Below, in pieces: positions 1 to 14,679 of a stretch of 64,000 nt of DNA. Numbering within the stretch: the first letter of the stretch is position 1; the number at the start of each line of letters is the position of its first letter. The stretch is from Bacilli bacterium (GTDB lineage: Bacteria; Bacillota_I; Bacilli_A; RF39; UBA660): assembly GCA_017941235.1 (NCBI GenBank), contig JAGAWU010000028.1, positions 1-64,000 on the forward strand. The letters run 5' to 3'. The position numbers and the translations under genes were made by a program. Below the pieces are notes generated by a model. That model searched no databases and was not told the DNA's origin. It saw only the letters and a list, made by a program, of their open reading frames with translations.

Positions 1-999
1 AAACCAATACAGGAAAAACATTTACTAGCTAAGAAAAATGGAAGTACTCCAACAAAAGAAACATATAAAGTAAGAATAGAGTATAGAAATGATGAAAGTA
101 TTAATCCAAGCGATTTAGATGATACTGATAAAACATTCTATTTCAAATTTAGTGTTAACTATGTACAAGCAGATGATACAGCAATAGATTCACATCCTAG
201 TGCAATTCATTATATTACGAGACAAAATGAAGGACAAATAACACCAGGAGATGTAATAGGAATAGGAGAAACAGAAGACTTCTATGTAATAAGTAGTAAT
301 GCAGAAAAAACCGTATTACTTGCAAAGTACAACTTGTTAGTTGGAAATGAATCGGATGATTGGGGAAATACATTCACACCAATTCCAACAACAGCACAAG
401 GTTATGGCTTACAAAGTGTAGATGCTATAGGATATGGAAACCATGAATCATTTAAAGGAACAGTACCATTTTCATCAACAAACTATTGGATGAATGGAAA
501 TAACTTAATAAGTTCATATAATGAAAATGATACAATTTATCTTGATAATAGTGACGAAGGTGAATGGAACTGGCACTTTAAATATAGAAATGACGACTCA
601 GATGCGTATCCATATGTCTATGATAATACATTGACAACAGCTCCAGATTTTAGTAGTGAATGTGATGATTCAACAAATTGTTATAATACACCTGGGTATA
701 GTATAGCTTATTATGTAGAAGAATATAAAACAAAATTAATAGAAATGGGAGCACCTTCAACAATATCAGGAAGACTATTAACATATGAAGAAGCAGATGC
801 AGCAAAAACGATAGAAGATAATAGCAAATCAATAATATTTGATGAATATCAATCGTATTGGCTTGGTTCGGCTAGCGACGTCAACCATCTGCGAGTTGTG
901 TACTCTTTCGGATCATCCTTCGACTATGGCAGCTATGACAGTCGCTACTACTACTTCGGTGTCCGCCCGGTTATAGAAATCTCAACATCTGATATCTAA
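1..999 (+). CDS. Surface protein with DUF6273-like C-terminus and DGR-type variable region (5' partial)
   Basis: The frame is open from the first base of the window to the TAA at 997-999, so the gene starts upstream and the visible 332 codons are the C-terminal part. The first 75 residues look like a beta-rich extracellular segment (FKFSVNYVQAD). The rest follows the DUF6273-like pattern: a GIGETEDFYVISSN strand, a WMNGNN motif, then YWLGSA...FGVRPVIEI at the end. The last 37 codons (859-969) are unusually GC-rich and use AGC, GAC, TAC and GGC codons in place of the AT-rich codons of the rest of the gene. They match, at corresponding positions, an Asn-rich non-coding copy at 1181-1288. This is how a C-type-lectin-like target of a diversity-generating retroelement looks. 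Function is probably surface ligand binding. Domain name from memory; VR call moderately sure. Confidence 0.72.
   Translation, partial: KPIQEKHLLAKKNGSTPTKETYKVRIEYRNDESINPSDLDDTDKTFYFKFSVNYVQADDTAIDSHPSAIHYITRQNEGQITPGDVIGIGETEDFYVISSNAEKTVLLAKYNLLVGNESDDWGNTFTPIPTTAQGYGLQSVDAIGYGNHESFKGTVPFSSTNYWMNGNNLISSYNENDTIYLDNSDEGEWNWHFKYRNDDSDAYPYVYDNTLTTAPDFSSECDDSTNCYNTPGYSIAYYVEEYKTKLIEMGAPSTISGRLLTYEEADAAKTIEDNSKSIIFDEYQSYWLGSASDVNHLRVVYSFGSSFDYGSYDSRYYYFGVRPVIEISTSDI
859..969 (+). repeat. Variable region (VR) of a putative diversity-generating retroelement
   Basis: This segment encodes WLGSA at its start and FGVRP at its end, and aligns codon by codon with the template-like repeat at 1181-1288. 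Over the first 28 aligned codons I count 22 differences at template adenines (of 34 adenines) and 13 at other bases (of 50). The non-adenine changes lie mostly at third codon positions. Its 3' end, GTGTCCGCCCGG, corresponds to GTGTTCGCCCAA in the template and could be the initiation-of-mutagenic-homing site. The excess of changes at A supports adenine-directed mutagenesis. The non-A differences mean the template copied into this VR was probably a paralogue of the one in the window. Confidence 0.65.
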
Positions 1000-1070
1000 G
1001 CACGAAGTGCGCCAGGAACGAAATTTCGGAGAAATTTGCGTTTCACGTCCTTCTTGAGGGAAATTTTCTA
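1000..1070 (+). repeat. Inverted repeats just downstream of the variable region
   Basis: Immediately after the stop codon lie a short perfect hairpin (GCAC-GAA-GTGC, 1000-1010) and an imperfect longer one built from AGGAACGAAATTT and AAATTTGCGTTTCACGTCCT around 1014-1052. Hairpins or cruciforms directly 3' of the VR are a known feature of several DGR target genes and help retrohoming; that role here is inference. They could instead be weak transcription-termination structures, though no T-run follows the first. Confidence 0.35.
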
Positions 1071-1180
1071 AAAGAAAATATTCCCGAGAGGAGGAGAAAA
1101 GCTTTAAATATATCATTTTGATGTATACGGGGAAATACTAGAAAGTGACTCCTGGTTGATTGGTCTTCGTTTAGTGTGTT

Positions 1181-1288
1181 TGGCTTGGGTCGGCTAACAA
1201 CAATAACAACGTGTGGAATGTTAATAGCAACAACTCGAACTTCAACAACAACAACTATAACAATGATGGCAACTATGGTGTTCGCCCA
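1181..1288 (+). repeat. Template repeat (TR)-like AAC-rich copy of the variable region
   Basis: Read in the frame matching the VR, this stretch gives WLGSA, then a block of which about 18 of 27 residues are Asn (almost all AAC or AAT codons), then YGVRP. AAC-rich templates are the hallmark of DGRs, because adenine mutagenesis of AAC reaches many residues and never a stop. The frame is closed by TAG at 1172-1174 just upstream and TAG at 1304-1306 downstream, and has no plausible start or ribosome site, so the copy is non-coding as expected for a TR. The flanking VR-identical words (TGGCTTGG, TCGGCTA, GGTGT, CGCCC) anchor it. A decayed second target-gene end is the main alternative. Confidence 0.7.
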
Positions 1289-1371
1289 ACTTTTCATAAA
1301 ACTTAGGATTACGTAATTGATATTTGTAATGAGAAGATATGAAAAGCGAAAATTTCTAGAACTATAATGAC

Positions 1372-1400
1372 AAGAGAGAATTTTCTCTCTTTTTTATTTT
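1372..1400 (+). terminator. Rho-independent terminator after the TR locus
   Basis: AAGAGAGAA and TTCTCTCTT form a 9-bp inverted repeat followed by a T-rich tract. It would end any transcript carrying the template-like repeat and separates this locus from the next promoter at 1441. Confidence 0.75.
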
Positions 1401-1440
1401 AAAAAAATAAAGTAAAAAATATGTAAAATTATCGTAAATA

Positions 1441-1468
1441 TTGCAAAAAAATCTATTTCTGATATACT
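1441..1468 (+). promoter_or_regulatory. Sigma-A-type promoter
   Basis: TTGCAA at 1441-1446 and TATACT at 1463-1468 are 16 bp apart, about 30 bp upstream of the start codon at 1499. It follows the terminator at 1372-1400, so the gene has its own promoter. Confidence 0.6.
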
Positions 1469-1498
1469 ATAGTTAGGATAGTGTAAGGTGGTGAGTAT

Positions 1499-2662
1499 AT
1501 GGTAGTCGAATCTTTGAAATATAACTATGTTCGCGAATTTTTGCAAAAGTTACTGACTCAAGATAGATATAAAAAAATAACACCACCAGAATCTTTAATA
1601 GAAGACTACCATATTGGAGACCGAATAGCCTTCTTCTTAGGATTAGATGCAGTAATAAAATATGATCAAATAATAGGAGAAGAGAAATATTTAAATACAT
1701 ATGTAGAACAATTAGAAAGAATATTTAAAAAACTACAAAATGGCGAAGATATAAGAATAGGAATATATCAAGAACTTGGAAAAATAGTAAGTAAAAAACT
1801 AAATGTAGATATAGATAATCATAATGAAATAATAAGATATATATATAATAAATATATTGTAAACGGATACTTTTATTTTGGATGCTCATCAAATTATATG
1901 AATGAAATCGATTGTATTGGTATAAGAAAAGCTAGTTTTAAATTTGATGATAGACTACTAGAAATAAATAAAACTATAAATAAAATATCAAACAAAACTC
2001 TATTTTATAATGATAGAGTAACATTAACAGATGATATAACGGTATCATTATACTATGCATTTTTATCACCTAATTATATATCAAATTTAATTGGTAATTC
2101 TATGATTAGCAATAAGAAAAATGATTTAGAGTGTTTTTATAGAAAAGATATTGCCAAAATAAAAGAGTTACTTCTAAAAACTCTAAACTATTTAACAATC
2201 AATAATATGGATAAAATAACAATAATTAATAATTTTATAGATGTATATATGGAAAACATAAATTCAAAACCATGTATAGCACGTATAAAAAGATCTTGCT
2301 TTAATAAAGATAGTTTAAAAGACATAGAAAATATATTAATAAACAGAGATGATAACCTTGGTGAATTAATCGCACTTATACTTGAAAGTAGATACAGTAG
2401 TTTAAATATCGTAGAAGATATAATGCCTGAGAATATAGAAACAATCATACTGCCAACATATAATGAATTCTTAGTTGGAAAGAATAATTTTACACTTTTA
2501 CCATCAGAGATAAAAATAGACAAAGAAGATTTAGAAATAAATAATTCTATAGTATCAAATAATATGAAAGTTAATTCTTATGGTTCAGTTTCATTTGCAA
2601 TTATTGGTATTTTGCTTATAATAATTGGTGTACTTTTAAGTATTTTACTGAAAATATCTTAA
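1499..2662 (+). CDS. Hypothetical tail-anchored membrane protein
   Basis: A 387-residue protein I do not recognise. It is Lys/Ile/Asn-rich, with a mostly helical cytoplasm-like body, and ends in one hydrophobic segment (about residues 362-385, SFAIIGILLIIIGVLLSILL) with only a few residues after it, so it is probably anchored by its C-terminus. There is no signal peptide. The ATG at 1499 is preceded by an AAGGTGGTGA ribosome site. It stands as a single gene with its own promoter, 35 bp before fmt. No reverse-transcriptase motif (such as YxDD) is present, so it is not the missing DGR enzyme despite its position. Confidence 0.6.
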   Translation: MVVESLKYNYVREFLQKLLTQDRYKKITPPESLIEDYHIGDRIAFFLGLDAVIKYDQIIGEEKYLNTYVEQLERIFKKLQNGEDIRIGIYQELGKIVSKKLNVDIDNHNEIIRYIYNKYIVNGYFYFGCSSNYMNEIDCIGIRKASFKFDDRLLEINKTINKISNKTLFYNDRVTLTDDITVSLYYAFLSPNYISNLIGNSMISNKKNDLECFYRKDIAKIKELLLKTLNYLTINNMDKITIINNFIDVYMENINSKPCIARIKRSCFNKDSLKDIENILINRDDNLGELIALILESRYSSLNIVEDIMPENIETIILPTYNEFLVGKNNFTLLPSEIKIDKEDLEINNSIVSNNMKVNSYGSVSFAIIGILLIIIGVLLSILLKIS

Positions 2663-2697: not shown

Positions 2698-3630
2698 ATG
2701 ACAAAAATAGTATTTATGGGAACTCCAGATTTTAGTGTTCCTGTATTAGAAGGACTAATAGAAAATAAAGATTATGAAGTAATTGGTGTAGTTAGTCAAC
2801 CTGATAAAAAAGTTGGGAGAAAACAAATAATTACACCATCTAAAGTGTCAGAAGTAGCGCTAAAAAATAATATTAAACTATTTAGACCAGAAAAATTAAG
2901 AAAAGAGTATGAAGACATACTTGAAACAAAACCTGATATTATAGTAACATGCGCATATGGACAAATAGTACCAAAAGAAATACTTGATTTTCCAAAGTAT
3001 GGCTGTATAAATGTCCATGCATCACTTCTTCCAAAATATCGTGGAGGAGCCCCAATACATAAAGCAATAATTGATGGCGAAGAAAAAACTGGAATAACAA
3101 TCATGTATATGAATGAAGGTTTAGATAAAGGTGATATAATTTCTCAAAAAGAAATAAAAATAGAAGATACTGATACAACTGAGACAATGCATGATAAATT
3201 AAGCGTGCTAGGAAGAGATTTACTTTTAGAAACACTTCCTAAAATAATAGAAGGAACAATTAATCCGATAAAGCAAAACGAAGAAGAAGCAACATTTGCT
3301 CATAATATTTCAAGAGAAGAAGAACATATAGATTTTAATAAAAATACAAAAGATATATATAATCAGGTAAGAGGATTAAATAGTTTCCCACTAGCATTTG
3401 CAATACTAGATAATAAAGAATATAAAATATATAGTGGAAAAATTTCAGATGCTAAAAAAGGAACACCGGGAGAAATTATTAATATATATAAAGATGGTAT
3501 AGGAGTAAGAACTCTAGATGGTGAGTACATTATAACTGAATTAAAAGAAGAAGGAAAAAAGAGACTTCTTGCTAAGGATTATCTTAATGGAAAGAAAAAA
3601 GAAGATTTAATAGGGAAAAAATTTGAGTAG
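2698..3630 (+). CDS. fmt: Methionyl-tRNA formyltransferase
   Basis: Formylates Met-tRNA(fMet) with 10-formyl-tetrahydrofolate to make the initiator. The 310 residues match the family length. The N-terminal Rossmann domain opens with MGTPDFSVP. The catalytic region carries the signature VHASLLPKYRGGAPI (near residues 107-121, with the catalytic Asn and His in the NVHAS part). The C-terminal OB-like domain begins around residue 205. It heads a co-directional block (3639, rlmN, prpC, pknB, rsgA, rpe) that is conserved in Bacillota. The ATG follows a GCAGGTGA ribosome site. The initiator tRNA is encoded in the same window at 34230-34306. Confidence 0.96.
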   Translation: MTKIVFMGTPDFSVPVLEGLIENKDYEVIGVVSQPDKKVGRKQIITPSKVSEVALKNNIKLFRPEKLRKEYEDILETKPDIIVTCAYGQIVPKEILDFPKYGCINVHASLLPKYRGGAPIHKAIIDGEEKTGITIMYMNEGLDKGDIISQKEIKIEDTDTTETMHDKLSVLGRDLLLETLPKIIEGTINPIKQNEEEATFAHNISREEEHIDFNKNTKDIYNQVRGLNSFPLAFAILDNKEYKIYSGKISDAKKGTPGEIINIYKDGIGVRTLDGEYIITELKEEGKKRLLAKDYLNGKKKEDLIGKKFE

Positions 3631-12522: not shown

Positions 12523-14679
12523 ATGAATGAACAAATAATAGAAGAAATATCAAAAGAAGAAAACATATCAAGAAAGCAAGTAGAAACAGTATTACAATTA
12601 CTTAGTGAAGGAAATACAATACCATTTATTGCTAGATATAGAAAAGAAGCTACAGGGGCTTTAGATGAAGAAAAAATAAAGAAAATTGGTGATGTATATG
12701 AATACCAAGTTAATCTATTAAAAAGAAAAGAAGATGTTATTAGATTAATAGATGAAAAAGGTTTACTTACTGATGAATTAAAAGAATCAATAATGAAATG
12801 TAGTAAGTTAGTAGAAGTTGAAGATTTATACAGACCATATAAAGAGAAGAAAAAGACAAAAGCAACAGAAGCAATTAAAGCAGGTCTTGAACCACTTGCT
12901 AAAATAATAATGAGTTTTCCAGAAACAGGAGACGTTGACTCTTTATGTAAAAAATTTATAAACGAAAGTATTAAAACAACAGAAGAAGCAGTTACTGGAG
13001 CTAAATATATAATAGCAGAATGGATAAGTGATAATGCAAGTTATAGAAAATGGATTAGAGGGTATTTTTACAAAAATGGGGTAGTAACAAGTACATTAAA
13101 GAAAAATGCTGAAGATACAGGAAAAATCTATGAAATGTATTATGAATATAATGAACCAGTAAAATACATAAAACCACATAGAATATTAGCGTTAAATAGA
13201 GGAGAAAAAGAAAAAGTACTAACTGTAGGAATTGATGTAAACAAAGATGAAATAATTAGTTACCTAGAAAAGAAATTAATAAAAAACGAAAAAAGTTTTG
13301 TTAGTAAATATGTCAAAGAATCCATAGAAGATTCTTATAAAAGATTAATTGCTCCTTCAGTAGAAAGAGAAATACGAAGCGATTTAACTGAAAAAGGTGA
13401 AGAAGCTGCAATATATAACTTTGGTAAAAACTTAGAAGCTCTACTTCTAACACCACCAATGAAAGAACAAGTTGTACTAGCATTTGATCCTGGTTTTGTT
13501 AATGGTTGCAAATTAGCAATAGTTGATAAAAATGGAAAATATTTAGATAGTACAGTAATAAAACCATTCTTAAAAGGAAAAGAAGAACAAAATATCAAAA
13601 TCAGTAAAGAGATAGTAGCACAACTTATAAAAAAATATAATGTAGATATAATTGCAATTGGAAATGGAACTGCATCTCGTGAATCAGAAAAATTCTGTTC
13701 AGAAATGATAAAAGAATATAATCTTCCTTGTAAGTATGTAATAGTAAGTGAAGCAGGAGCATCAATTTATTCAGCTTCAGACCTTGCTATAGAAGAATTT
13801 CCTGATTTAGCAGTAGAAAAAAGAAGTGCAGTAAGTATAGGAAGAAGACTTCAAGATCCACTTTCAGAACTTGTAAAAATACCACCTGATGGAATCGGAG
13901 TAGGATTATATCAGCATGATGTATCACAAAGTAAACTAAGTAACAATCTAGATTTCGTAGTTGAAAAATGCGTTAATAGTGTAGGAGTAAACATAAATAC
14001 TGCAAGTAGATCACTATTAAAGTATGTTTCTGGAATTACTAAAAAAGCCATTGATAAAATAATAGAATATAGAGAAAAAATTGGAAAAATAACTTCAAGA
14101 GAAGAGATTAAGAAAAAGAAATTATTAAGTGAAAAAGCATATGAGCAAGCAATAGGTTTCCTAAGAATAGTAGATGGAGAAAACATTCTAGATAGAACTG
14201 CAATTCACCCAGAAAGTTACGATATAGCTTTAAAATTATTAGAAAAAATAGATAGTAATTTAAATGAAGTTGGAAGTAGCAAATTAATTGAAAAATTAGA
14301 AAGTATTAATATAGATGAATTATCAAAATTATTAAATACTGATAAATATACTCTTGAAGATGTTATATCAAACTTAAAGAAACCTAATTTAGATCCAAGA
14401 GATGAATATCCACAACCAATATTAAAAAGTGATATTTTAGATATTAAAGATCTAAAAATTGGAATGAAATTACAAGGAACAGTTAGAAATGTTGTAGATT
14501 TTGGTCTATTTATAGATATTGGATTACACAATGATGGACTAGCACATATTTCTAAACTAAGTAAAAATTATATAAAACATCCATCTGATTTATTTAGTGT
14601 AGGTGATATAGTTGATTGCTATGTTGAAGATATATCTCTAGAAAAAGAAAAAGTAAGTTTAACATTATTAGAAAATTAA
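12523..14679 (+). CDS. tex: Tex-family RNA-binding S1 domain protein
   Basis: A 718-residue nucleic-acid-binding protein of the Tex/YdcI family, linked to transcription and RNA handling. Domains in order: helical Tex N-terminus (FIARYRKEATGALDEEKI), YqgF-like RNase-H fold (about residues 320-450, AFDPGFVNGCKLAIVD), helix-hairpin-helix pair (about 490-560, VNINTASRSLL) and a C-terminal S1 domain (about 645-715, GTVRNVVDFGLFIDIG). Complete and of usual length. Preceded by a GGAGGATG ribosome site and isolated by terminators on both sides. Confidence 0.94.
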   Translation: MNEQIIEEISKEENISRKQVETVLQLLSEGNTIPFIARYRKEATGALDEEKIKKIGDVYEYQVNLLKRKEDVIRLIDEKGLLTDELKESIMKCSKLVEVEDLYRPYKEKKKTKATEAIKAGLEPLAKIIMSFPETGDVDSLCKKFINESIKTTEEAVTGAKYIIAEWISDNASYRKWIRGYFYKNGVVTSTLKKNAEDTGKIYEMYYEYNEPVKYIKPHRILALNRGEKEKVLTVGIDVNKDEIISYLEKKLIKNEKSFVSKYVKESIEDSYKRLIAPSVEREIRSDLTEKGEEAAIYNFGKNLEALLLTPPMKEQVVLAFDPGFVNGCKLAIVDKNGKYLDSTVIKPFLKGKEEQNIKISKEIVAQLIKKYNVDIIAIGNGTASRESEKFCSEMIKEYNLPCKYVIVSEAGASIYSASDLAIEEFPDLAVEKRSAVSIGRRLQDPLSELVKIPPDGIGVGLYQHDVSQSKLSNNLDFVVEKCVNSVGVNINTASRSLLKYVSGITKKAIDKIIEYREKIGKITSREEIKKKKLLSEKAYEQAIGFLRIVDGENILDRTAIHPESYDIALKLLEKIDSNLNEVGSSKLIEKLESINIDELSKLLNTDKYTLEDVISNLKKPNLDPRDEYPQPILKSDILDIKDLKIGMKLQGTVRNVVDFGLFIDIGLHNDGLAHISKLSKNYIKHPSDLFSVGDIVDCYVEDISLEKEKVSLTLLEN

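Follow-up and report, generated by a model that had tools for sequence, protein, structure and literature searches.

The 3′ end of a gene from an uncultured member of the Bacilli lies next to a non-coding, AAC-rich copy, and this raises the question of whether the two form a diversity-generating retroelement (DGR) in which the copy served as the template for the gene end. We addressed it in a 64-kb window at the start of contig C5 in the source genome (G000:C5:1-64000). The assembly of this genome (1.56 Mb, 57 contigs, 91% complete, 6% contamination) may mix strains. For comparison we used a genus relative, G001, whose contig C21 (Bacillales bacterium UBA7476) carries a complete DGR with an intact template repeat (TR); the other template-bearing comparison genomes were G002, G146 and G277.

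A predicted DGR operon on contig C52

The initial annotation had described this locus as the footprint of a DGR, a reading that it tied to the presence of a DGR reverse transcriptase (RT) in the genome. Both an RT and an Avd protein were found, on contig C52, where the order is a variable region at the end of a target gene (VR2, C52:149-253), a template repeat (TR2, C52:469-573), a terminator-like stretch, a MutS domain I protein of 138 aa (MutS_I, E=1.5e-9), bAvd and RT. The RT is the sole RVT_1 match in the source genome, over the Pfam cut-off, and its translation contains the motif IGNMSSQ. In the PDB, the entry closest to it by sequence is 8ub7, 'Reverse transcriptase' (E=6e-29), which we take to be the Bordetella DGR enzyme. 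The bAvd protein matched PF22296 just over the cut-off (E=4.5e-10), and the Avd model NF033474 with E=1.8e-11, below that model's curated cut-off. TR2 and VR2 differ at 18 of 36 template adenines and at 1 of 39 other positions (P=1e-6). Judged by the RT, the Avd protein and this nearly A-only TR/VR pair, the genome encodes a DGR. An IMH-like end and a hairpin/cruciform 3′ of the VR are also found in this DGR, several VRs being without the hairpin. A gene of 337-339 aa follows the RT in both genomes (L002:2935-3945 and L030:7322-8341); it had no Pfam match over the cut-off, and a 93% identical copy is present on contig C35.

Plain divergence of paralogues, or low-complexity asparagine codons, could in principle produce a similar picture with no retroelement involved: the target genes do form a paralogous family, and VR1 and TR1, the gene end and the copy in the window, have many non-A differences. 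However, an operon of RT, Avd and MutS-like protein (MSL) is present, C-ending codons are confined to VRs, and non-A change is nearly absent from seven clean TR/VR pairs, in which pooled adenines were changed at 144/269 positions and other bases at about 7/283. The C52 operon and its TR2/VR2 pair rule this reading out, and we give it practically no weight.

Homologues of the RT occurred in 122 of 386 sampled genomes of the family, and in the best 27 RT loci fetched, bAvd was present in 27/27 and MutS_I in 23/27. Searches of IMG/VR for relatives of the RT, of the template word and of the target all came back empty, and the RT matched the ten best-scoring records of phages at 27-37%; on these grounds we rejected a viral origin. 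This DGR family is a common chromosomal one in uncultured Bacilli, with surface-type targets and a poorly understood MSL accessory. The genus relative has a second, more diverged DGR on its contig C62 (L075:5342-7200), with MutS_I, Avd and RT about 45-52% identical; its RT is followed by a stretch rich in AAC that resembles a template. In a distant Bacilli metagenome-assembled genome (L031:4257-5471), the 3′ end of the target is itself template-like (NNNVNNDNDLGVRPAFFKT) and stands directly before Avd and RT, so that a single stretch seems to have replaced the separate VR and TR.

The adjacent VR1 and TR1 as a candidate pair

The window target gene (1-999, + strand), recognised by family alignment, is an open reading frame of which 332 aa are seen, its 5′ end being cut off by the contig start. 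VR1 occupies its 3′ end (859-972, + strand), as delimited by the frame and the end words common to TRs and VRs, and includes an IMH-like 3′ homology word (GGTGTCCGCCC, 958-968, + strand), where identity stops when VR and TR ends are compared. The VR 3′ flank (1000-1148, + strand) is common to other VR genes, with 96% identity to contig C19 and partial matches to C35, C22 and C52. The AAY-rich template repeat TR1 follows at 1181-1291 (+ strand). This block is non-coding for the target, and we identified it as an A-rich template by comparing it with templates that precede the DGR RT operons of relatives; it and the TR belonging to the genus relative's complete DGR are nearly identical.

Our analysis reproduced the common frame and the end words (TGGCTTGGNTCGGCT ... 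GGTGTYCGCCC) that the initial annotation had noticed in the gene end and the non-coding copy. Its count of differences also came out exactly the same: in an ungapped comparison limited to the first 28 codons, differences fall on 22 of 34 template adenines and on 13 of 50 other positions (one-sided Fisher P=4.5e-4). Adjacency, frame, end words and this A bias could suggest that TR1 writes VR1 in cis with the help of a remote RT. When the required one-codon gap is included in the codon alignment, however, the differences become 24/38 at A and 17/43 at non-A positions (P=0.028), compared with 0-2 non-A mismatches in the five cis pairs of C52, G001:C21, G002, G277 and G146, and the spacer of TR1 carries a deletion. 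Despite the A bias, the 17/43 non-A mismatches and the one-codon length difference argue against a direct template-copy pair. We therefore consider a working cis pair very improbable and reject TR1 as the donor: by its mismatches and length, TR1 did not write VR1. Consequently, while the initial annotation was right about the kind of element, its pairing of 859-969 with 1181-1288 does not hold, since the lengths differ and the VRs that TR1 does fit lie elsewhere, on two other contigs (see below). The region 859-1288 is not a complete cis DGR, as VR1 was evidently not copied from TR1 and neither RT nor Avd adjoins the TR. A neighbouring AAC-rich copy alone is thus no proof of a donor-recipient pair.

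VR1 itself has the codon signature of an AAC-rich template. C-ending codons make up 17/28 in VR1 and 21/286 in the remainder of the gene at 1-999 (third-base test, P=5.6e-11), and because such an excess is the mark of an AAC-rich template, we regard VR1 as a true VR on this signature. A TR matching it with A-only mismatches, which the initial annotation had suggested looking for, was not present among the templates compared: further genus and family templates showed 10-23 non-A mismatches plus 1-4 codon gaps, a count from which the out-of-frame G199 template was excluded. As a DNA query across the family, VR1 matched only the conserved VR ends. We infer that the template behind VR1 is now lost or unassembled.

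Fragmentation of the assembly bears on these results. We counted eight DGR target genes in the source genome, and the contig ends of C19, C22 and C52 fall in or near one common target-gene sequence (ATGGGAGCTCCATCAACTATAACAGG). Since contigs break at this sequence, the numbers of target genes and templates are probably underestimated, and an intact TR1-like copy, or an RT upstream near VR1, may be missing from the assembly.

A hairpin downstream of many variable regions

A hairpin/cruciform-forming element (GGAACGAAATTTCGGAGAAATTTGCGTTTC; 1015-1044, + strand) lies 15 bp past the stop codon of the window target gene. It is conserved 3′ of 11 VRs and covaries, with double changes in 4/11 pairs, and the DNA fold of window positions 1000-1105 had a z-score of -3.3. 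No such hairpin was found at the VRs C22a, C22b, C19b, G001:C41, G001:C47, G002:C2 and G002:C25. The VRs sorted into those with and those without it included L028 (- strand, near 13692 and 2127), L077:2309, L078:1368, L079 (- strand, near 3464) and L080:3222. C22a and G001:C41 have no hairpin and yet are among the cleanest A-only copies, so either the hairpin is dispensable or these VRs were moved by recombination after they had been written.

TR1 fits remote variable regions and has a truncated spacer

Compared with TR1, VR C22a differs at 22/38 A and 3/43 non-A positions (P=5.5e-7), and VR C19a at 20/38 A and 4/43 non-A positions (P=2e-5). These patterns mark TR1 as a genuine template, of the type from which the VRs on C19 and C22 were written. 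Three of the non-A sites have T in TR1 but C in both VRs and in the intact TR of G001:C21, which implies that TR1 either descends from the template type that wrote these VRs and has since drifted, or that a sister copy wrote them.

The spacers 3′ of TR2 and of the templates of G001 (two), G002 and G146 align well and have three helices in common, with some double changes. In the BPP-1 phage of Bordetella, the spacer 3′ of the TR recruits bRT-Avd (PMC12875486). The first hairpin of this spacer, kept in the relatives, survives after TR1 and still folds (1291-1345, + strand). Alignment with the relatives' spacers places the junction of a deletion of ~80 nt at 1338-1352 (+ strand), between TGAAAA repeats; helix II is lost with it, as is one arm of helix III. 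An intrinsic-terminator-like site, which would end the TR1 transcript, is found at 1372-1391 (+ strand), and is followed by unrelated genes; RT, Avd and MutS genes are absent beside TR1. An Rfam search of window positions 800-1500 gave no match.

These features bear on whether TR1 could still be active as a satellite template, supplying the C52 RT in trans and rewriting the VRs on C19 and C22. Such activity would agree with TR1 giving the best fits to these VRs in the genome and with its intact first spacer hairpin, terminator and end words, but not with the C that both VRs share with the relative's intact TR at the three T sites of TR1, nor with the loss of conserved spacer, and we consider it rather unlikely. 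As no RT, Avd or MutS gene adjoins TR1 and ~80 nt of conserved spacer are missing, TR1 is probably a decayed copy, which would have lost its RT operon and then part of the RT-Avd-loading spacer, and is now probably inactive. Overall, we favour, with a probability of roughly 0.8, the interpretation that what the window carries is one RT-less cassette belonging to a multi-locus DGR of the chromosome, with TR1 probably decayed and the donor of VR1 lost or unassembled.

If the system works as characterised DGRs do, the complex of RT and bAvd encoded by the C52 operon, together with its MutS-domain-I partner, would copy the TR transcript and misread its adenines in the process. The resulting cDNA would then supplant the VR with which a target gene ends, whether that gene lies in cis or in trans; the recipients would be targets whose end words match and which usually also carry the 3′ hairpin.

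RT-less cassettes in related genomes

Template cassettes devoid of an RT recur in two relatives. The cassette on G001:C27 has a VR, a TR and MutS_I, and neither Avd nor RT. The template that fits its VR is the TR of G001:C21 (2/41 non-A) and not the adjoining one (13/43), while its own TR fits the remote VR G001:C41, with 14/35 A vs 1/43 non-A differences. On G146:C12, a TR with an intact spacer has an A-only partner at 19/35 A and 2/43 non-A positions and is followed only by a MutS_I-like remnant; the RT match of this genome lies on contig C2. PDDEXK_2-type nuclease genes were observed just 3′ of several VR genes or an RT-less cassette (at the end of L027, and on the - strand at L028:1-489 and L076:1-340); they form a multi-copy family located at contig ends.

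A broader and more tentative proposal, which we hold as possible though doubtful, is that the DGRs of this family are dispersed networks, in which one RT-Avd-MSL operon and several templates, some of them RT-less, rewrite shared surface genes in trans, with template switching. On this proposal, VR1 would have passed to a new template from one that is lost, and the RT-less cassettes would include templates kept in use as well as relics. With their intact, drifted and deleted spacers, these cassettes provide a natural series for studying template-RNA needs and trans action.

The target protein family

Complete paralogues of the window target are about 400-460 aa long and have a hydrophobic N-terminal segment, a middle domain and a VR near the C-terminus. 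The N-terminal segment is in line with the surface-type target proposed by the initial annotation, and we infer that the product is likely surface-anchored, with a variable C-terminal binding face. The middle domain is also found in other proteins of the source genome, in open frames of up to 2203 aa. On contigs C19 and C57 (L117, L118, L120), the target N-terminal domain recurs in open frames of 1355-2203 aa, which are likely other surface proteins.

The DUF6273 type, also proposed initially for the target, gave a weak match: the profile (PF19789) matched 2/13 family members (best E=0.0064) and did not match the window protein. We also considered whether the VR lies in a binding domain of the C-type-lectin fold; a PDB sequence search with the target C-terminal domain gave no match, and the AlphaFold model of the window target, built from a three-sequence alignment, was too poor to judge the fold (pLDDT 42). 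When the whole target was searched as a profile against the PDB, it returned weak matches to AbpX (E=0.005); these vanished with the N-terminal domain alone, and so we treat a TasA/camelysin-like domain as no more than a lead.

Comparison with known systems

The DGR of Bordetella phage BPP-1 (Mtd, Avd, bRT) resembles the present system in its RT and Avd homologues, its A-directed changes, the position of the VR at the target 3′ end, the structure-forming element past the stop codon, which is required in BPP-1 (PMC3240598), and the TR 3′ spacer (PMC12875486). In contrast, the system described here is chromosomal and not phage-borne, has several templates and dispersed targets, and differs in its order VR-TR-MSL-Avd-RT, with a terminator-like stretch after the TR and an extra MutS-domain-I protein. 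MSL (MutS-like, PF01624), named together with HRDC, is already known as a DGR accessory (PMC10053308); likewise, MutS_I here adjoins Avd and RT, as in most of the related loci fetched.

Remote writing also has parallels. Cyanobacterial remote variable proteins similarly comprise dispersed VR genes in one genome with few RTs, but unlike here their targets are mostly predicted to be cytosolic (PMC7517822). The part of the Treponema denticola report considered here describes remote targets and, as with VR1, a leftover VR matching a template that the strain no longer has; unlike here, an RT-less template cassette does not figure in that part (PMC4891356). Thiohalocapsa PB-PSB1 has several DGR loci, some incomplete, with documented trans activity, and the non-A sites of its VRs agree with TRs from different loci, as we observed; it differs in that active change is seen in population reads and in that its targets are putative conflict-system proteins, whereas those described here are of surface type (PMC10907252). 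Trans-writing and leftover VRs therefore already have published precedents, and the source genome, as its sequence indicates, adds a chromosomal DGR from uncultured Bacilli that has several templates, several targets and the accessories MSL and bAvd.
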